NCBI RefSeq assembly: GCF_005796185.1 | Contig: NZ_VAHM01000006.1 | Location: 1-64,000 of the forward strand | Source of the DNA: Pseudarthrobacter sp. NamB4 | Lineage (GTDB): Bacteria > Actinomycetota > Actinomycetes > Actinomycetales > Micrococcaceae | Reading direction: 5' to 3' | Length of the DNA stretch: 64,000 nucleotides | Part shown: piece after piece, positions 21,980 to 53,444 of the stretch | Layout of the letters: each line of letters opens with the position of its first letter | How positions within the stretch are numbered: position 1 is the stretch's first letter | The notes under the pieces: model-generated | The model's database searches: none | Seen by the model: only the letters and a program-made list of their open reading frames with translations | What the model was told of the DNA's origin: nothing | Position numbers and translations under genes: made by a program

Positions 21980-23050
21980 TTATCCACAGTGTGGATAAGC
22001 TGCGGATACCTGTTCGCGGCGCAGCACCAGCGCGGGGCACCGGGCACTGGAGTCTACATTTGCGCGCCGCATGCAGTTATTAACACTGTGGAATACCTGT
22101 GGATAATCCTCCGGCGGAGGTTGCCGATCTAACGTTGTTGGCGAACCGGGTGGTGGCTGGTTATCGAAATCCGATTGAAGGCGTTCATGGTGATGACGAG
22201 CCAGCTGACCACTGAAAACTCCTCCTCCGACAGGTGTTGCCGCGCGTACGCCTCCTCTTGCTCCTGGGACAGGTGGCCCGGCAGTTCCGTGATGCTCTCC
22301 GCCAAGGCCAAGGCAGCGCGCTCTTTCTCCGTGAACAGCGCCGTGTCACGCCAGGCGGGCAGGACAGCCAGCCGTTGCTGGGTCTCTCCCTCCTGGAGGG
22401 CTTCCTGCATGTGGAGGTCCAGGCAGTAGGCGCAGCCGTTTAACTGGGAAATTCGTACGTTAAGGAGTTCCATCGTCCTCCGGTCGATGCCTGCGTCCCT
22501 GGCCGCTTCCTTGACCTTGAGTCCCAGGCCATTCAGGGACCGCCACAGGACCGGATGCTGCTTATCAAGGAAGATGTGCTTGGTGGTAGCTGTCATGGGC
22601 TCTCCTGGGACGGACGCTAATACACAAGGGTCGGCACCTGAAGCTTATCCACTTACCAACATGGCAATACCCACAACTTATCCACAGCTGTGGAAACACG
22701 ACAGGTTGAGGACGGCAGGAACGGCCAGCGCACTGTGATGCGGGCTCCCGGTATGCAGAAAACTACATGGCTGTTCTTATTAACAGTGTGTATAACCCTG
22801 TTGAAAGGGCGCGCGGCTGCCGGGCGGAAGGTGCTTTATTGCCTGAGCAGCCTTCAGTTATCCACACCGGCACGTTTTATCCATGGTTTGTCCACTTAAG
22901 AACAAGGCTATCCCCAGAACTTATCCACAGGTGTGGAGAAAAATGGGCGCATTTGGGGAAATTTGCCCGGGACTTGGCGGTTGTTGACTGACCAGGAGAA
23001 GAACTACAGGCGTGTAAGTTACCAACATTGTGGATAAGGGTTGTGGATAA
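21980..23050. other. DnaA-box cluster (possible origin-like or DnaA-binding locus)
   Basis: Perfect boxes TTATCCACA (or complement TGTGGATAA) lie at 21980-21988, 21990-21998, 22098-22106, 22678-22686, 22858-22866, 22921-22929, 23029-23037 and 23042-23050. A TTATACACA variant is at 22787-22795, and one-mismatch boxes occur at 22087 and 22645. The first two form a convergent pair with a single base between them. Three flank one side of the gene at 22129 and the rest lie in the AT-richer non-coding stretch 22597-23054. This is more perfect boxes than either flank of dnaA has. Confidence 0.8.
22129..22596 (-). CDS. Carboxymuconolactone decarboxylase family protein (AhpD-like)
   Basis: A 155-residue all-helical protein with the AhpD-type redox motif: Cys55 and Cys58 in NGCAYCLDLH, with His62. 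It has LLNVRISQL before the motif and FTEKERAALALAESIT after it. Such proteins act as alkylhydroperoxidase-like peroxidases or reductants. It is a single gene embedded between two groups of DnaA boxes, which may bring it under DnaA influence (inference). The ATG at 22596 follows GGAGAGCCC. Confidence 0.85.
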   Translation of the reverse strand: MTATTKHIFLDKQHPVLWRSLNGLGLKVKEAARDAGIDRRTMELLNVRISQLNGCAYCLDLHMQEALQEGETQQRLAVLPAWRDTALFTEKERAALALAESITELPGHLSQEQEEAYARQHLSEEEFSVVSWLVITMNAFNRISITSHHPVRQQR

Positions 23051-40458: not shown

Positions 40459-40997
40459 GGAAGGGTGCCGCCTTTCATTGCTGTTGCCATGTGAGCCCGG
40501 GAATTCCGCAGGGAAACTCCGGAAGATGTTTCCGGCGCTCCGGCCGGTGCATGGTCCGCGCAGATGGAAACCACACAAAAACCCAAGGATGGGAGCGCTT
40601 GCTGACAGCTTAGCCCGAAGATCCGGGATTAACCCATCCCCCAGGCCCCAGCCCCGCCTCTCCAGCGGGCCGGCAGGCCCCGCACCGGACGGACGGATCG
40701 ATCTTGTTGTTTGAGGGATTTCAATTTTTTGGGATTCGTAGTGTTAATAACTGCTGTGGATTCTGTGGATAACCGGCTTTTGAGGCTTGTATCCGCGGTT
40801 AAGCCCTGTTCACGGACTGTGCGTTACCTGGGTTTTAAACAGGGTGTGGATGGGGACAACGTAAAGGGCAGTTTTTGACGATCCACAGATGCCTTAAGGG
40901 TTTTAAGCCCATTAACCGCGCTTGTCCCCTTAACTATCCACAGGCTTATCCACATGCACCTGTTAATAAGGTACGGAGTGCGTGACGCGATGTGGAT
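40459..40997. other. Putative oriC, dnaA-dnaN intergenic region
   Basis: A 539-base non-coding region with perfect DnaA boxes at 40764-40772 and 40946-40954, near-matches at 40755, 40844 and 40934-40942, and an AT-rich block around 40698-40735 that could unwind. This is the usual place for actinobacterial oriC. No gene is visible. Confidence 0.75.
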
Positions 40998-46181: not shown

Positions 46182-47249
46182 GTGACCAGTAGCGAAGCCT
46201 CCACGCAACGGATACCGCCGTTCGTGTCCTTGGGGTCAGCGCCTTCCGTCGCTGGTCTAGGTGGAGCCCCGGGAAGGGGCGGAATGCACCCGGAGAAGGT
46301 TTCAGACCGCTCTAAAACTGTCGAGGTTTCACGTGAAACAACCACTGTTGGTAGAGCCAACATTATCGACTCCATTGATGACTCAAGTCCCATAGCCCGC
46401 GAACTGGCGCACGAGACAAAACGTCGGGAACGGTTGGTGGGACGTAAACTGCCGCGGCCGGAAAATACCCGCGTGTTCACCGTCTCGAACCAGAAGGGTG
46501 GGGTCGGGAAAACCACCACCACGGTTAACATTGCGGCCGCTCTTGCTGCGGCTGGCCTCAACGTCCTGGTGATCGACATCGACCCTCAAGGCAATGCCTC
46601 AACGGCTTTGGGGATCGAGCACCATGCCGACGTGGACAGCATCTACGATGTCCTGATCAATGATGTTCCCCTCGCCGATGTAGTTGCCCAATGCCCGGAC
46701 ATCAGCAACCTGATCTGCGCTCCTGCCACCATCCATTTGGCAGGAGCAGAAATAGAACTCGTCTCGTTGGTGGCACGCGAGCAGCGGCTGCGGCGGGCGA
46801 TTGACGTTTATGCCAAGATCCGCGAGAAAAACGGCGAACAGCGCCTCGACTACATCTTTATCGACTGCCCGCCAAGCCTGGGACTATTGACAGTCAACGC
46901 CTTCTGCGCGGCCAACGAGGTGCTTATCCCCATCCAGTGCGAGTACTACGCACTTGAGGGCCTGAGCCAGCTCCTGAAGAACATTGAGATGATCCAAAAG
47001 CACCTCAATGCAGACTTGGTGGTTTCCACGATCCTCCTCACTATGTACGACGGCCGGACCAATCTGGCAGCCCAGGTGGCCGCTGAAGTGCGGCAACACT
47101 TCCCGGATCAGGTCCTGTCTGCTGTTGTCCCGCGTTCAGTGCGTATCTCCGAGGCCCCCAGCTACCAACAGACGGTCATGACGTACGACCCTTCCTCCAG
47201 TGGAGCCCTGTCTTACCTGGAAGCGGCTGCTGAAATAGCAGAACGCTAA
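46182..47249 (+). CDS. parA: Chromosome partitioning ATPase ParA
   Basis: A Walker-type ATPase of 355 residues that moves and orients origins with ParB. It has the deviant Walker A KGGVGKTTTTVN, DIDPQGNAST, the switch FIDCPPSLGLLTVNAF, and the NIEMIQKHL region. An N-terminal extension of about 90 residues precedes the ATPase. A perfect parS site lies inside this extension, coding for VSRET at residues 49-53. It starts at GTG 46182 and is followed by parB. Confidence 0.95.
   Translation: MTSSEASTQRIPPFVSLGSAPSVAGLGGAPGRGGMHPEKVSDRSKTVEVSRETTTVGRANIIDSIDDSSPIARELAHETKRRERLVGRKLPRPENTRVFTVSNQKGGVGKTTTTVNIAAALAAAGLNVLVIDIDPQGNASTALGIEHHADVDSIYDVLINDVPLADVVAQCPDISNLICAPATIHLAGAEIELVSLVAREQRLRRAIDVYAKIREKNGEQRLDYIFIDCPPSLGLLTVNAFCAANEVLIPIQCEYYALEGLSQLLKNIEMIQKHLNADLVVSTILLTMYDGRTNLAAQVAAEVRQHFPDQVLSAVVPRSVRISEAPSYQQTVMTYDPSSSGALSYLEAAAEIAER
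46326..46339. other. parS site inside parA
   Basis: GTTTCACGTGAAAC, perfect core of the ParB-binding centromere sequence, in frame within the parA N-terminal extension (V49 to the T of VSRET). Confidence 0.92.
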
Positions 47250-47312: not shown

Positions 47313-48596
47313 ATGAGCGAGAAGCGACGTGGCCTGGGCCGCGGTCTTGGCGCGCTGATTCCAAGTTCCGCCGCCGCCAACGGGTCGGGCAATGCGACGG
47401 CAGCGTCACGTCCGGTTGATCTCTTTTTCCCAGAGGGACGTAAGAAAACGGACTCTGGCTCGGAAAGCAGCGAACCCAGGCAGGCAACGGGGAATGCAGC
47501 GAACAAGCGTCCTTCTTCTGCCGCCGGCAAACCAGCCTCTGACAAGTCCCCGGCCAGCGGGACTCATGCTTCGAAGGGCACCTCGTCGAAGCCCCCCACA
47601 TCAAGCAACCCGGCGCTTGGCTCTGATACTGAAAAGGATGCTCCCGCCCAGCCGACGGAGGCTTCACAGGCTGAGGAATCCCTCGCTGATGTGACTGATG
47701 CAGCCCCTCACGACGCCTCAGCTGAACCAGCTGAGGTACCACCGGCAGTGTCCAGCGCCGGTGTGGAGCTGGTGGAGGTTCCGGGTGCCCACTTCGCCGA
47801 AATCCCTGTGGCGGACATCCACCCTAACCGCAAACAGCCGCGGTCCGTCTTCGATGAAGACGACATGGCGGAGCTCGTCCACTCCGTCCGCGAAATTGGC
47901 GTCCTCCAACCAATTGTGGTGCGGAAGTCAACCGAAGAGGGTGTCGAACCCTTCGAGTTGGTTATGGGTGAGCGCCGGTGGCGGGCGGTCCAGGCGGCTG
48001 GCCTCGACACCATTCCGGCAATCGTCAGGGATACCACTGACGACGACCTGCTGCGGGATGCGCTGCTGGAGAACCTGCACCGCAGCCAGCTGAATCCGCT
48101 GGAAGAAGCAGCGGCGTACCAGCAGCTCCTGGAAGATTTCGGAACCACCCACGAGCAACTCGCTGACCGTATCGGCCGTTCCCGTCCGCAGGTGTCAAAC
48201 ACCCTGCGACTCCTCAAACTGCCGCCGCTGGTCCAGCGACGAGTGGCAGCAGGCGTACTCTCCGCTGGACATGCACGGGCCCTCCTGGCCCTTCCTGACG
48301 CCGCTGCCATGGAGCGTCTGGCGCAGAGAATCGTTGCTGAAGGCATGTCGGTCCGCGCAACCGAGGAAGCGGTGGCGCTGTACCAGGACCCCTCGAAGCC
48401 GGCAAAGAACAACATTCCCCGCCCCGGTGCCCGCCATGAGCGCCTGGATTACCTTGCATCCTCGCTCTCTGACCGGCTGGACACGAACGTCAAGATATCC
48501 CTTGGGGTTCGTAAGGGAAAGGTCAGTATCGAGTTCGCCAGCGTTGAGGATTTGAACCGCATTATGGAGGTTCTGGCTCCAGGGGCAAACAACTAG
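47313..48596 (+). CDS. parB: Chromosome partitioning protein ParB
   Basis: The centromere-binding CTPase, 427 residues. The N-terminal 160 residues are low-complexity Ser/Ala/Pro/Glu-rich. The ParB/Sulfiredoxin-like CTPase domain follows with [25 protein letters not shown] and [14 protein letters not shown], then the HTH ([19 protein letters not shown]). The C-terminal dimer domain ends [11 protein letters not shown]. Its binding sites parS lie in parA and in the non-coding region directly downstream. It starts at ATG 47313 after GGAGGGA. Confidence 0.96.
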
Positions 48597-48610
48597 AGTA
48601 GAGTTCTTTG

Positions 48611-48640
48611 AAGGGCCTGATCCAACCGGATCGGGCCCTT
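48611..48640 (+). terminator. Terminator after parB
   Basis: AAGGGCCTGATCC pairs with GGATCGGGCCCTT around an AACC loop (13 bp with one T-G pair), 15 bases after the parB stop. GTCTTTG follows. Confidence 0.8.
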
Positions 48641-48908
48641 GTCTTTGCCCGCACGCTTCGGTACGAGGGAGAGCTCCCGATTTTTCTAACCTTCCTAGCT
48701 CCAGCAGCTTTGGGCGAAGCAGTTCCGCTATTGCTGATAGCGCCACGGAGTATAACTGTCCACGGTCGTTCTTTGCGGCAGGCGTAGCTTCCATCCCCTT
48801 CGGGCGAATCGACCCATGACCCATTGATGAAACTTTGAAGTTGCGCATCTGGTTCTATCGGAGTATGAGAAGGTAGCTGAACGGCGGGGCCCTCGTAACG
48901 AGCGCCGC

Positions 48909-48922
48909 GTTTCACGTGAAAC
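48909..48922. other. parS site
   Basis: Perfect GTTTCACGTGAAAC, about 310 bases after parB. A 12-base motif (TAGCTGAACGGC) lies 24 bases upstream and recurs before the parS at 49894. Confidence 0.92.
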
Positions 48923-49356
48923 GCTGCGAGGCCTTCACGACTTTGATCGATATTGTGACGCCCGGGCAAAGCCCTGTTCGGGCCACCACCTCTAGCGTGT
49001 AAGCCCCCCGACTGATCGTGCCCTCTCTCCGTATCTTGCGAGTTGCAGAGCTTTTCCTGGTGTTGCGACTGCTACGGTGTGGAAGCTCAAGGTACAGGAA
49101 CATCCCCAAGGCCTCACAGTATCATCCTGCTCTCTCGAAGGTTCTGTGCAGCTTCATACACTGCACGTTCTGCTACCACCGCCCCCTTACAGCGCAGATC
49201 TTCCTGGAAGCCGATACTTGGGCCTGCTGCTCGGGACACATGCCCGGTCCCGCGATCATCCGCATTGTCGTCGGGTCCTCGATCGAAGTCGCCTTGAAAT
49301 GATCCCTGTTGCCCGGTCTGGAGAACCAGGGCCGCCCTAATCGCGGCCAACATGGA

Positions 49357-49372
49357 TGTGTCACGTGGAACA
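49357..49372. other. Degenerate parS-like site
   Basis: TGTGTCACGTGGAACA matches the 16-base parS consensus (TGTTTCACGTGAAACA) at 14 positions and keeps the TCACGTG centre. Confidence 0.5.
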
Positions 49373-49893
49373 TCAGGCCTACCTGCTGACACATAATCTA
49401 GGCGCTGCGGGCGATAAAAGGCGACGAGCAAAGTAAACGACCCAAGTCGCACGACTGGCCGCGACTAGTGCATGCACAGAGTCCGAGGAACATGGCACCC
49501 AGCAGCGCGGCGGCGGGACCGAGCAGCCGAAGTAGCCGGGCGTGGAGGAGGGCGAGTCCGCCTCTGATTGGGCGCCTTCACTGGGCATGAAAATGCTCCG
49601 CGGAAGGGATTCCCTACTAGCCTTCAGGGCGATCATGCTGAAACCGGGCAGCGGGCTTCACAGCGTCCCGGGCTGGCTAGTCTTTTGCTCAAAGCGAGTC
49701 CCCTCTTCAGGCTTGGGACTACTTACGTGAGTTCTGGGGCTACTCGTATACGGCTAGCGCTTCGACCCACCGACGATGGGTCTGTGGCGCTTAGTGAGAC
49801 GGTCGAGGCCCTACTCTCCTACTCGCGGTGCGTTATCCCCGCTCCGCGCGCAGCGGCTCCGTGGCAAAATAAGCGGATAGCTGAACGGCCGCT

Positions 49894-49907
49894 GTTTCAC
49901 GTGAAAC
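49894..49907. other. parS site
   Basis: Perfect GTTTCACGTGAAAC; the full 16-base TGTTTCACGTGAAACA is present, with CGCT/AGCG symmetric flanks. Confidence 0.93.
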
Positions 49908-50684
49908 AGCGTTCTCTGCCTTCCAGGACATAATAAGAAGATACTCGGCCACGGGGTCGCGTCTACGGCCACAGGAATAAGCGCACCATGGGCCGAGATA
50001 CTTCCCGAGAGACCGCAGCCGACCCTGCAGGCTGTCATAGGGCTGCGAATCAGGGCGTTAGAGGACTACCGGAGATTCGAAGCCTACTCGAAGTACGACG
50101 ACCATTGGGTACCAAGAGGCGCCGCTCATCGTCATTACCCAACAGGCGATTCTTCTAGCGTGTTCTAGGGGCTACACGCCGCCTTCTTGAACACGCGCCT
50201 TTCAGATCCATAAGTACTCGCTCTCTCTTCCGCAGTGTCGCTCGCAGCGGATGGCTGCGAATTGCTCGGAACCACGGGAGGGCCTACTGCACGCAGGCGT
50301 GCGACCACCTGTCCGCGCTCCCCCGATAAGCCGTCCCCTATGGCATAACCGGATGTCATTGTCTACGGCTAACGGTGCAGAATGGAGGTCCAACCAGGGA
50401 GGAATCAGGCAGCGGTAAGAGCGCACCTTTGGCATGCGGCGTAACTAGGTCATGAGGAGGTTCTGCGAGGCACGCGAAAGTCGCATCAATGGAACGATCG
50501 TTCAGGTTTCGTGCTAGCTGCCGGAAAATTTGACGGGCTCCGTCAAGACGACGGACGCATCCAATGCAGACGACATACGGCCGGGGCCGCGTCGACGGTC
50601 ATATGCCTGCGAATTTGGATAGCGCGGGTGTGCCCGTCGCAAGGCGGCACCCTCGAAATGGTGCGGTGCTCCGGTGGATATAGC

Positions 50685-50693
50685 TGTGGATAA
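50685..50693 (-). other. DnaA box
   Basis: TGTGGATAA (complement of TTATCCACA), the first of three boxes in the same orientation within 390 bases of the parS locus. Confidence 0.75.
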
Positions 50694-50811
50694 CTGTGTG
50701 GACGGTGTAACTGCCTCTACCCACTCAGGACGGCGTTCGTTGCTATCCTGCCTGCACCCGACCGCCACGGATTAGTTCTGCTCTTGTTGCCGGAACGCCT
50801 GCCCGGTGGGC

Positions 50812-50825
50812 GTTTCACGTGAAAC
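50812..50825. other. parS site with extended palindrome
   Basis: Perfect GTTTCACGTGAAAC. The symmetry extends through the flanks (GGGC on the left and GCCC on the right), giving a 22-base perfect palindrome at 50808-50829. Confidence 0.92.
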
Positions 50826-51019
50826 GCCCATCCTCAGGCGCATGCAAGACTCAGGAGGGCCCTTTTTCACCCTGATATGGCTGTTCCGGTCCCGCCAAAC
50901 GGGGTCTATCCTCCGTTTGGCGAGGAGGTCTACCCGCCCATCTTTTTGTGCCCGCTTCAACGATGGGGGTGTGCCACGCCGTCCGGGACTTGTGCTCTCG
51001 AATTCGTTCTCTCTTGCCC

Positions 51020-51028
51020 TGTGGATAA
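51020..51028 (-). other. DnaA box
   Basis: Perfect TGTGGATAA, 38 bases before a third perfect box at 51066. Confidence 0.75.
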
Positions 51029-51065
51029 ATATGTGGAGAAGCTGCCGTGTGCCCTGTGGACCGGC

Positions 51066-51074
51066 TGTGGATAA
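51066..51074 (-). other. DnaA box
   Basis: Perfect TGTGGATAA, same orientation as the boxes at 50685 and 51020. Confidence 0.75.
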
Positions 51075-51667
51075 AAGCATCCGTGAGGTCTCAGAGATGC
51101 CGGTCCGGCGCTGTTTCCGCCCTGATCTGAACCGGGACGATCACGGGTTCATGCTGCTCCTATGGCCGAAGACGGGTCGCCCTCAGGTTGGCAAGCATCG
51201 GGTGGCCATCCAGTATCTGCGAATCCCGCAGGGTGTTTTGCTGGGCATTCAATGCGGGGTTGTTTGCGAGAGGTCGAAGCTGGAGCGGCATGGACGGACA
51301 AGATCCAGCAGGGCGGGTGGCTGAGTTTGTTACCCAGTGTCGCGCGCAAGTCCTATCGGCCCGCCCGCCAGGGGGTGCGAAGGCGGAACCGAGGAGCCGT
51401 CTGTGTATATTGACGTTATCGTAAGGCCATAAGTACTCGCGATCGCTCAGTAACACTTGGGTGCAGCCCGGCGCTTTCTCTACGAACACCCACGGTTCCG
51501 CGCATTGTCGCATCCGTGGGGTACGTTGGGCCAGGTAAAGACATGCGCTGGAAGGGTTTGCTGGACGTGCCACTGGTGCCCTTAGCTACTTCCGCATTAC
51601 AGTCGCGCATGATTAGGAACGACAAGCGACCGTACAGTCGCTCCTGAAGGGAAGAACCTGGTCGCTT

Positions 51668-51732
51668 GTTTCGAGTGAAACAAGCGACCGGAGGACCACT
51701 CGCCCCAGCGGCCCGTCTTAGTCGTGCACTGC
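51668..51732 (-). repeat. Inverted copy of a parS-containing module (decayed parS)
   Basis: The reverse complement of this 65-base segment matches 52062-52127 with about six differences. The parS in this copy reads GTTTCGAGTGAAAC (51668-51681), so the CACGTG centre is lost, although the arms GGTCGCTTGTTTC and GAAACAAGCGACC around it are still symmetric. Confidence 0.8.
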
Positions 51733-52061
51733 GCACCAATGTAGCTGGGCTTTCAGGTGGCCTTCGGGCAGGAAAGACCGGGCCTGCCTATTAGCTACAA
51801 CTCTTCTGCCGGTAACGGTGGTAGCACGGCCGGCCTATTGCAAGGGAGTACGCGCCGGATGGTAGCGACGTGCTGCCTTGGGCAGCTCTGCACGTTCTGA
51901 ACGGACTGCATGAGACGCTCAATACCGTACGCTGGACCAGCGGATTCTGGAAGCTTCGTTTGAGGCATAGCGGAGCTGACCGGGGCCACCAAACCGCCCC
52001 CACCCGCTTGGCTGTGGCTAGAAGCACAGCATATCGCCCTGCAGGTCGGCTGCCGTCTGGG

Positions 52062-52127
52062 GCAGTGCACGACAAAGACGGGCCGCTGGAGCGAGTGGGC
52101 CCTCCGGTCGCTTGTTTCACGTGAAAC
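52062..52127 (+). repeat. Copy of the parS-containing module (intact parS)
   Basis: Inverted partner of 51668-51732, separated by about 330 bases. It ends in the perfect parS at 52114-52127. Shared features include GCAGTGCACGAC at one end, GACGGGCCGCTGG in the middle and CCTCCGGTCGCTTG next to parS. Confidence 0.8.
52114..52127. other. parS site
   Basis: Perfect GTTTCACGTGAAAC at the end of the inverted module. The flanks CCGGTCGCTT and ACGCGGCCGG are largely complementary, extending the symmetry. Confidence 0.92.
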
Positions 52128-52482
52128 ACGCGGCCGGGCCCTCGAGTGCGGGCGGCGCATGCAGGATACGGCCTTGGCAAGACAAACGATGGGTGGGCGT
52201 CAAGGTGGCAATACCGAGTGCGGCCGCCCTCCCCACGAGGATGACGAACCATTGGTCTGAGCAGCTCGACCACCTGGTTCTTCCGGGCAAGTGCTTCTGC
52301 GCGCTAGCGACCTTGCAAAAGAAGCATCGATGCGAAATCGGCATCTCTATCCTTTTAAGCTATCGCCAGTACCTGGGCCTTGGGCCCTCGTGTAACCGGA
52401 GCCCGCGTTCGCAAGAGTTGCCCTAGCAGAAGTCCTGCTGCTGAGAATGCCTCCAGCTGGTAGGCGTCTGGGAATCGGTGCA

Positions 52483-52514
52483 CCTCCCCTCGGTTCACGT
52501 GAAACGAGGGGAGG
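52483..52514. other. parS-like site with 32-base palindrome
   Basis: The core at 52492-52505 reads GGTTCACGTGAAAC, one mismatch to parS. The flanks CCTCCCCTCG and CGAGGGGAGG are exactly complementary, so the whole 32 bases form a palindrome with a single mismatched pair. Confidence 0.75.
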
Positions 52515-52930
52515 AGCTGCATCAGCACGAAGGCTGGATACGGCGCTCTGCACCCGACAACGTGGCGCTTCAACAGGTAGCGGGGCTCGCGCCCGCTGAC
52601 GGCGATTAGAGGAAGCGCCGTCTCGCAGTCAATAGAGGCGCACTCGGACGTGCGACGTGATTCAGAGCCTAGCCGCCTATCAAGATCAAAGATCGATCAT
52701 TCGGGTCCGGTACCGTTCTGGCAAAGCATCGGGCGCAAACTGTGCACTGTTAGTTCCGCAACGGAAGCGTTGTCCTCGGATACGAGCACCATATGCGTCA
52801 TGGCTTGGCGTCTGAAGAATCTTTGACTGGGCACGTCAAGCGACTGCTTACCGTGAGGACTACTAGGCAGCGCTGCACCGCGAGCAGGTGAGTCAGCGAC
52901 GCTGGGCATGCAACGATGGCTGGAGCATCT

Positions 52931-52944
52931 GTTTCACGTGAAAC
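52931..52944. other. parS site
   Basis: Perfect GTTTCACGTGAAAC (full TGTTTCACGTGAAACA), about 100 bases from the trxA terminator and the last parS of the locus. Confidence 0.92.
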
Positions 52945-53045
52945 ACCATATGAGCTCCGTCTGCCTTCTACTAGCAGCGGCAACGTACGAAGCCACGAGA
53001 TGCAACCGGCACATCCGCCCACCCGGCAACTGTCACCTTAAACGA

Positions 53046-53078
53046 GAAATGACCACCGCCGCAGGCGGTGGTCATTTC
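53046..53078 (-). terminator. Terminator after trxA
   Basis: GAAATGACCACCGCC and its perfect complement form a 15-bp stem with a 3-base loop. Reading leftward it is followed by TCTCGTT. The A/T ends make it potentially bidirectional, and it closes the parS locus on this side. Confidence 0.8.
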
Positions 53079-53117
53079 GTTGTGACGCTGAGGTCTATTG
53101 GCGGTGACGCCTAAAGA

Positions 53118-53444
53118 CTAGGAAAGAACGTCGGAGAATTCCTTTTCGAAGAACTGCTTGGGCTTGGCACCGATGACGGTGTTCTTCACTTCCCCACCCT
53201 GGAACAGGTAGACAGCGGGAATCGAGGTAATGCCGTATTCGGCAGCGATAGCGGGGTTGTCATCGACGTTAACCTTGACAACGTCGACTTTCTCGCTGTA
53301 CTCGACGGAGATCTCATCCAGGATCGGGCCGAGTTTGCGGCAGGGGCCGCACCACTCTGCCCAGAAATCAACAATTACCGGCTTATCGGAGGACAGAACG
53401 TCCGTGCCGAAACTTGCGTCAGTTACATTTTTGGCGTTGCTCAT
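53118..53444 (-). CDS. trxA: Thioredoxin
   Basis: A 108-residue thioredoxin. The active site is WCGPC in VDFWAEWCGPCRKLGPIL, with the cis-Pro motif SIPAVYLF later. It reduces protein disulfides and is itself reduced by TrxB, encoded 35 bases upstream in the same operon. The pair is expected to be induced by disulfide stress because of the SigR-type promoter upstream of trxB. Confidence 0.96.
   Translation of the reverse strand: MSNAKNVTDASFGTDVLSSDKPVIVDFWAEWCGPCRKLGPILDEISVEYSEKVDVVKVNVDDNPAIAAEYGITSIPAVYLFQGGEVKNTVIGAKPKQFFEKEFSDVLS

Follow-up and report, generated by a model that had tools for sequence, protein, structure and literature searches.

In ParABS systems, ParB loads at parS sites and slides along the DNA as a clamp, and roadblocks stop its diffusion in vitro (PMC9242446). 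A parS arrangement available for close comparison is the origin-proximal cluster of Corynebacterium glutamicum, in which ParB is recruited to ten sites, all but one of them intergenic, that are spread over 35 kb at a distance of 73 kb from oriC (PMC7083940). Here we describe a different layout in Pseudarthrobacter sp. NamB4, found in a 64,000-bp stretch of contig NZ_VAHM01000006.1 (positions 1 to 64,000; the window in what follows). As in C. glutamicum the cluster is origin-proximal, but nearly all of its parS sites are confined to one gene-free interval of 4,521 bp directly 3′ of parB, and the same interval carries an array of DnaA boxes.

Clusters of DnaA boxes outside the origin are reported to restrain initiation in Escherichia coli, Bacillus subtilis and Streptomyces coelicolor (PMC5742627). 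In the E. coli locus datA, which is copied soon after initiation, the essential boxes point in one direction, an IHF site is required, and the distance to oriC is ~0.5 Mb (PMC5742627). The array described here is likewise a same-direction cluster of boxes outside oriC that would be copied early, but its boxes stand in tandem at 12-bp steps, ~10 kb from the likely oriC and in a locus shared with parS, and the likeness drawn here is one of layout. The B. subtilis and S. coelicolor clusters also lie outside the origin and are reported to restrain initiation, although the accessible text of the sources does not place them inside a parS array (PMC5295017, PMC5742627). Boxes are also concentrated near the E. 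coli origin, where they have been argued to titrate DnaA (PMC12371093), but that concentration is a broad density effect, whereas the present array is compact, phased and oriented. DARS1 and DARS2 are small groups of DnaA boxes outside oriC as well; in the DARS core, however, box I lies opposite to boxes II and III (PMC5742627), whereas no opposite-orientation perfect box occurs in 57 intervals of the genus. Contacts between the segregation and initiation machineries have been reported: DnaA is a target of Soj/ParA in B. subtilis and a binding partner of ParB in two further species (PMC7022226). A literature search of titles and abstract starts, which covered few subscription papers, returned no account of an interval in this group that is free of genes and combines parS with a DnaA array.

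We propose that the parB-trxA interval is probably a centromere, built as a gene-free track on which ParB loads and slides, with a datA-like array for the binding of DnaA incorporated into it. It would then be a natural bacterial centromere that resembles a regional element, in that sites and their approximate spacing are kept, the intervening sequence is nearly free and genes are excluded. The demands that SMC loading and the sliding of ParB place on the DNA around them would become testable by editing a single non-coding locus. The presence of the DnaA array inside the centromere suggests a cis link between segregation and initiation, the control of which may thus reside on one DNA element.

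Absence of coding signal between parB and trxA

The first-pass annotation of this DNA had described 4.5 kb without a credible gene between parB and trxA (Table 1), and this description was borne out. Scored by a codon model under settings identical to those used for its shuffles, the interval gave a best segment of 8.1 bits at a minimum length of 20 codons (shuffle median 9.0, with 60 of 100 shuffles as high) and of 7.4 bits at a minimum of 40 codons (shuffle median 3.7, 22 of 100 as high), compared with 78.9 bits for parB and 39.7 bits for trxA. Among the 10 open reading frames (ORFs) scanned, of the ~33 in the interval with at least 60 amino acids, there was no Pfam match at E values up to 0.1; a tRNA search of the interval found none, and the single match from Rfam (E 0.61) fell below its gathering score. 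The interval coincides with the longest stretch lacking coding signal in the window (4,545 bp; the next longest is 1,515 bp), and a simple promoter scan of positions 48400-53300 returned two sites where 1.6 were expected. The claim that its composition is unlike that of the flanks stands in a weaker form, as the difference in G+C (GC) content is modest (0.594 versus 0.633 for the window).

The two flanking genes are convergent and both end in strong hairpins, an arrangement that simply fits a silent interval; the hairpin 3′ of parB is not among the matches of a terminator scan that requires a T run. Long hairpins are present at several sites, and proteins shorter than ~70 codons would escape the codon-model threshold (30 bits for ORFs in relatives), so that a conserved non-coding RNA or small proteins encoded in the interval could be imagined to have been overlooked. 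This we regard as very improbable, given the searches above, in which nothing rose beyond the shuffles or the gathering score, and given that spacer identity between relatives is close to that of shuffled DNA. Hidden genes or RNAs were rejected because the Rfam, tRNA, codon-model and Pfam scans were negative, as far as these reach.

parS sites and conservation of the interval in the genus

Sites were called with the 14-mer GTTTCACGTGAAAC, which we take to be the parS consensus. The interval contains five perfect sites, one site with one mismatch and two degenerate ones, and parA contains a further perfect site, a tally that the first-pass annotation had given correctly. A 16-mer scan allowing up to three mismatches yielded nine matches, whereas the shuffles averaged 0.06 and not one of 100 gave as many, and all seven places at which the 14-mer occurs in the 3.82-Mb assembly with at most one mismatch lie in the interval or in parA. 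As expected of a ParABS centromere, multiple parS motifs adjoin parA-parB, and they are near the presumed replication origin, at ~6-12 kb from dnaA in the window.

For comparison, we drew 60 further genomes from the genus (code g1), all of which have ParB, and fetched 59 regions (G048, on a short contig, was omitted). Both ends of the interval were in reach in 56 of these (L126 ends at a contig edge), making 57 measurable intervals with that of the window. No ORF of at least 30 bits is present in 56 of the 57; these intervals are 3,917-6,956 bp long (median 5,291.5 bp) and have 6-11 parS sites at up to one mismatch (median 8). The exception, L129, has a 9,357-bp interval with two ORFs above the threshold, of which the one tested matches an integrase core in Pfam. 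All 59 other same-genus regions have a perfect parS 2.15-2.35 kb ahead of the parB stop. Across 26 genomes of the genus, 235 of 236 perfect parS sites belong to the par locus, if the trxB-side half of the interval in G047 is included: the fetched region accounts for 228, including 202 that fall between parB and either trxA or the region end, while seven of the remaining eight belong to the distal half of the interval in G047 and the eighth, in G023, is remote. In G047 and G032 the interval is interrupted, with ORFs between its parts, and the rest of the parS sites come only after another ~14 kb and ~8 kb, respectively, next to trxB. A long gene-free gap beside parB can therefore be a conserved locus across a genus. 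The dedicated gene-free centromere array envisaged in the first-pass annotation survives this comparison, which had been suggested there as a check, but that account was incomplete, having missed the DnaA-box array.

Some features of individual parS sites deserve mention. In a number of relatives a parS lies 20-40 bp 3′ of parB, and in L003 a one-mismatch site is part of a terminator-like palindrome ~33 bp after the end of the parB match. Unusually long palindromes surround parS in the window at 51657-51691, 52104-52137 and 52480-52517 and are far weaker in relatives. Flanking positions are complementary at 6.0 of 10 positions versus 2.6 by chance for six sites of the window, and at 3.02 versus 2.60 for 466 sites across the genus, a weak excess; the extended palindromes were not seen in genera g19, g22 and g23. 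Given this weakness and these absences, the palindromes were dropped from the main claim.

An oriented and phased DnaA-box array

When parS was masked, a k-mer scan of 56 intervals recovered TTATCCACA in 55 of them, as well as overlapping box-like strings; the former was absent from one Markov resample of each interval, and the latter were far above the resample level. Perfect boxes in the 57 intervals number 129 in one orientation and 0 in the other, at a density of 0.424/kb compared with 0.005/kb in the fetched flanks. Phasing is equally marked, with an exact 12-bp spacing in 108 of 157 consecutive box-like words less than 60 bp apart. The consensus of 55 aligned modules reads cgGTGGATAtc.cTGTGGATAACt.TGtGGAtaa, parS, cTGTGGATAac..TGTG.Ata, ctGtGGAtAac, and the stretches between these blocks are little conserved.

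A pair of multi-box groups, separated by 308-405 bp (~345 bp), is found in 44 of 56 intervals, the first group at 0.35-0.51 of the interval length, and a parS lies between them in 38 of the 44, against an expectation of 46%. By alignment, this parS is the sole strongly conserved block between the groups, no search aimed at IHF sites having been made. In five relatives (L109, L115, L116, L127 and L132) a parS is situated 94-105 bp on the other side instead, and the interrupted intervals of G047 and G032 retain two perfect boxes at a distance of 372-377 bp, the first of which is followed by a parS after 104-111 bp.

At the genome level, the 3.82 Mb of NamB4 contain 31 perfect boxes, of which three are in the interval, three around dnaA and eight at 21980-23050 of the window. 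Fourteen single-contig genomes of the genus contain 61 tandem pairs of boxes at 12-bp spacing and up to one mismatch, with 45 in the interval, 14 just after dnaA and two near the counterpart of the 22-23 kb cluster; places were assigned by coordinate, and the dnaA place was confirmed by a DnaA match for G001. The eight boxes at 21980-23050 are in both orientations around a carboxymuconolactone-decarboxylase-family gene, ~18-20 kb from dnaA. Counterparts are clusters of six in G047 and G032 and, in each of G001 and G011, five perfect boxes at 17-18 kb from dnaA; the site is a candidate second DnaA-box locus near the origin.

The array and the replication origin

The dnaN-dnaA intergenic region is the likely origin, because it has several of the window's 40 most AT-rich 60-bp windows, with GC content down to 0.35, together with three boxes within one mismatch, while none of these 40 falls inside the DnaA module (GC 0.583), in which no AT-rich unwinding element was found. 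The array, ~10 kb away, is accordingly placed as a locus that is probably not the origin.

It might nevertheless be supposed that replication truly begins in the module, which would then be an origin, or a component of a bipartite one, that has moved into the parS array. The module has DnaA boxes, as an oriC would; among the 14 same-genus genomes, 12-bp-phased boxes in the same direction occur, two sites aside, only in the interval and just after dnaA; and the module is slightly AT-richer than its surroundings (GC 0.54-0.59 in 100-bp bins versus ~0.60). In six of 55 intervals, including that of the window (-0.010 left, +0.050 right), GC skew also passes from negative before the module to positive after it. 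Mean GC skew on the + strand of the 55 intervals is, however, positive on both sides (0.032 left and 0.040 right), as is mean TA skew. Taken singly, the left side is not below 0 in 49 of 55, the right side is above 0 in 48 of 55, and left is below right in 34 of 55. With no mean skew flip and no AT-rich element, in contrast to the AT-rich windows and boxes of the dnaN-dnaA region, a relocated origin was ruled out as the principal interpretation and we consider it improbable. Cumulative skew was followed over 64, 240 and 160 kb; its minimum, which in G001 and G011 is reached ~20.8 kb beyond dnaA, may follow gene strand, so that skew is no proof of an origin at dnaN-dnaA either.

Spacer turnover, parS spacing and the length of the interval

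Between the window and its best-matching named relative among the matches listed, Pseudarthrobacter sp. NamE5 (L001; ParB 88% identical), the spacers are 0.455 identical, where five shuffles gave 0.406-0.429, whereas 4-fold codon sites are 0.748 and parS and box positions 0.92 identical. Likewise, L086 and L098 have a spacer identity of 0.462 (five shuffles, 0.412-0.423) and 0.754 at 4-fold sites; the window and L081 have 0.419 in spacers, with 4-fold sites just 0.444. Spacer identity is thus slightly above, and not at, the shuffled level. The closer pair L087/L090 is still alignable, with 0.816 in spacers versus 0.794 at 4-fold sites.

The sites themselves behave differently. Collinear chains were defined as parS sites in the same order whose spacing agrees to within 25% or 60 bp; they were scored on whichever member of a pair has fewer sites and were compared with 200 random placements per pair. 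Full chains were obtained for window/L001 (7/7), window/L081 (7/7), L086/L098 (11/11), L086/L096 (10/10), L092/L093 (9/9) and L107/L108 (9/9), and in each of these six pairs, of seven tested, 0 of 200 placements did as well. Base-level alignment finds fewer common sites in distant pairs (1/6 for window/L081). It seems that the sites, their order and their rough spacing are retained while spacer sequence is nearly free. Bacterial genomes show a deletional bias, and because spacing is kept and the interval persists across the genus in spite of it, the length of the interval would appear to be under selection.

A less elaborate explanation is that this is a plain parS array, its length a leftover from the loss of a cwlM-like gene beside trxA and its DnaA boxes a separate titration site that is there by chance. 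A gene of this type, with PG_binding_1 and Amidase_3 domains, does occur beside trxA in some members of the family (by Pfam in L022 and L145, and on visual inspection of the translation in L156 and L172). Long intervals free of boxes exist in several other genera, and insertions are tolerated, as shown by the integrase-core ORF of L129 and by transposase-like ORFs recognised by eye in the intervals of L006, L151 and L194. Yet a length of 3.9-7.0 kb in 56 of 57 intervals far exceeds that of a ~1.2-kb gene, and the range has been held although spacers approach shuffled identity; parS spacing is kept beyond chance in six of seven pairs, and the geometry of parS and boxes is more regular than chance. 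On balance we find the leftover explanation unlikely.

How the locus might work

In the preferred reading, a ParB track with a DnaA array, ParB-CTP clamps would load at the approximately eight parS sites and diffuse over DNA that no gene needs, and the convergent genes with their strong hairpins would shield the track on both sides. The two same-direction box groups, with their 12-bp steps and usually a parS between them, would hold DnaA oligomers. With the likely oriC ~10 kb away, the array would be copied soon after initiation and would take up DnaA in the manner of datA and other box clusters. Since it would also be inside the ParB complex, occupancy by ParB and ParA and the binding of DnaA could affect each other. 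The sequence comparisons show the architecture itself: the motifs with their orientation, phasing and conservation, the lack of coding signal, the turnover of the spacers and the want of a general skew flip. From the published behaviour of ParB clamps, of DnaA clusters and of Soj/ParA with DnaA, we infer a gene-free ParB track on which DnaA is sequestered by an array whose copy number doubles early. Proteins would bind at these motifs, the interval would be transcriptionally silent, and segregation would be coupled to initiation.

A stronger version of this idea, which is speculative and which we think unlikely, is a combined control of segregation and initiation. ParB clamps loaded at the parS that separates the box groups would physically control how DnaA oligomers assemble there, or the DnaA oligomers would gate ParB sliding and SMC loading, and the duplication and separation of the origin would feed back in cis on the next initiation without a diffusible ParA signal.

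Several observations weigh against a dedicated ParB track with a DnaA array. ParB can pass roadblocks, and chromatin immunoprecipitation in vivo shows no strong effect of genes on its occupancy (PMC9242446), so that ParB may have no need of a gene-free track; in C. glutamicum one parS is enough for wild-type-like growth (PMC7083940), and in B. subtilis deletion of box clusters has a strong effect only when all six are removed (PMC5295017). A relaxed 8-mer gives 306 boxes versus 45 reversed, 12 of 56 intervals show one box group rather than two, and no parS lies between the groups in 6 of 44. Outside the genus, 44 of the 54 intervals measured lack perfect boxes, several of these 44 being long and rich in parS. 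The skew changes of six intervals, cited above, belong here too, as does the pair L083/L085, whose parS chain of 5/8 is at chance level (92 of 200 placements as good). Balanced neutral insertions and deletions could, moreover, produce similar lengths in close pairs.

Table 1. Features of the par locus and of the likely origin region in the window
Feature	Position	Strand	Description
dnaN-dnaA intergenic region, likely oriC	40579..40997		DnaA boxes at 40764, 40934 (1 mismatch) and 40946; among the most AT-rich stretches of the window
parA	46182..47249	+	GTG start as listed; Pfam AAA_31 / CbiA; contains one perfect parS
parS, perfect, within parA	46326..46339		motif scan
parB	47313..48596	+	Pfam ParB_N, HTH_ParB, ParB_C
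Gene-free parS interval, 4,521 bp	48597..53117		ORF list, codon model, Pfam, coding-signal gap
Hairpin directly 3′ of parB, terminator-like, 13-pair stem	48611..48640	+	RNA fold z -5.5
parS, perfect	48909..48922		motif scan
parS, degenerate, 2 mismatches	49358..49371		motif scan; one-mismatch site at the corresponding place in L001
parS, perfect	49894..49907		motif scan
DnaA-box group 1	50673..50705	-	GGTGGATAT (50673), perfect TGTGGATAA (50685), degenerate TGTGGACGG (50697); 12-bp steps; read on + strand
parS, perfect, between the two DnaA-box groups	50812..50825		motif scan
DnaA-box group 2	51020..51074	-	perfect boxes 51020-51028 and 51066-51074; one-mismatch box 51032-51040
parS, degenerate, 2 mismatches, inside long palindrome	51668..51681		motif scan, fold
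parS, perfect, extended palindromic flanks	52114..52127		motif scan, fold
parS, one mismatch, extended palindromic flanks	52492..52505		motif scan, fold
parS, perfect	52931..52944		motif scan
Terminator-like hairpin 3′ of trxA, 15-pair stem	53046..53078	-	RNA fold z -5.6; terminator scan, both strands
trxA	53118..53444	-	Pfam Thioredoxin; convergent with parB

The interval in the wider family

The wider set comprised at least 80 named loci together with 60 regions representing other genera of the family, and parS sites are present in the parB-trxA interval of many of its members. Intervals in other family members can be short, down to 57 bp in Psychromicrobium silvestre (L030). The six outgroup loci on the tree (Cellulomonas, Actinotalea, Sanguibacter, Occultella, Pedococcus and Phycicoccus) have no parS at up to one mismatch in their intervals, the parS being placed before parB, and contain ORFs above the coding threshold; in a further Cellulomonas locus (L049) one interval gene matches a D-Ala-D-Ala ligase.

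Six of the 60 other-genus regions had no trxA in reach, leaving 54 measured intervals. Perfect boxes occur in 7 of 7 intervals of genus g7 and 3 of 3 of genus g19. As they are found only in these two and in the genus of NamB4, DnaA boxes were ruled out as a general trait of long parS intervals; no comparable conserved motif was found in the box-free groups, with few genomes per group. In a FastTree tree of ParA, ParB and TrxB the box-bearing groups are not contiguous, and the node joining them is weak (support 0.65), which allows for one gain of the array with losses or for two gains.

Two loci of genus g8, L158 and L160, have parS sites that are mostly one-mismatch variants (one perfect and seven variant sites, and two perfect and eight variant sites, respectively), possibly reflecting a shift of the motif. 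In genera g22 and g23 (L179-L183), a repeated word around CAATATTGCC is common to four of the five intervals.

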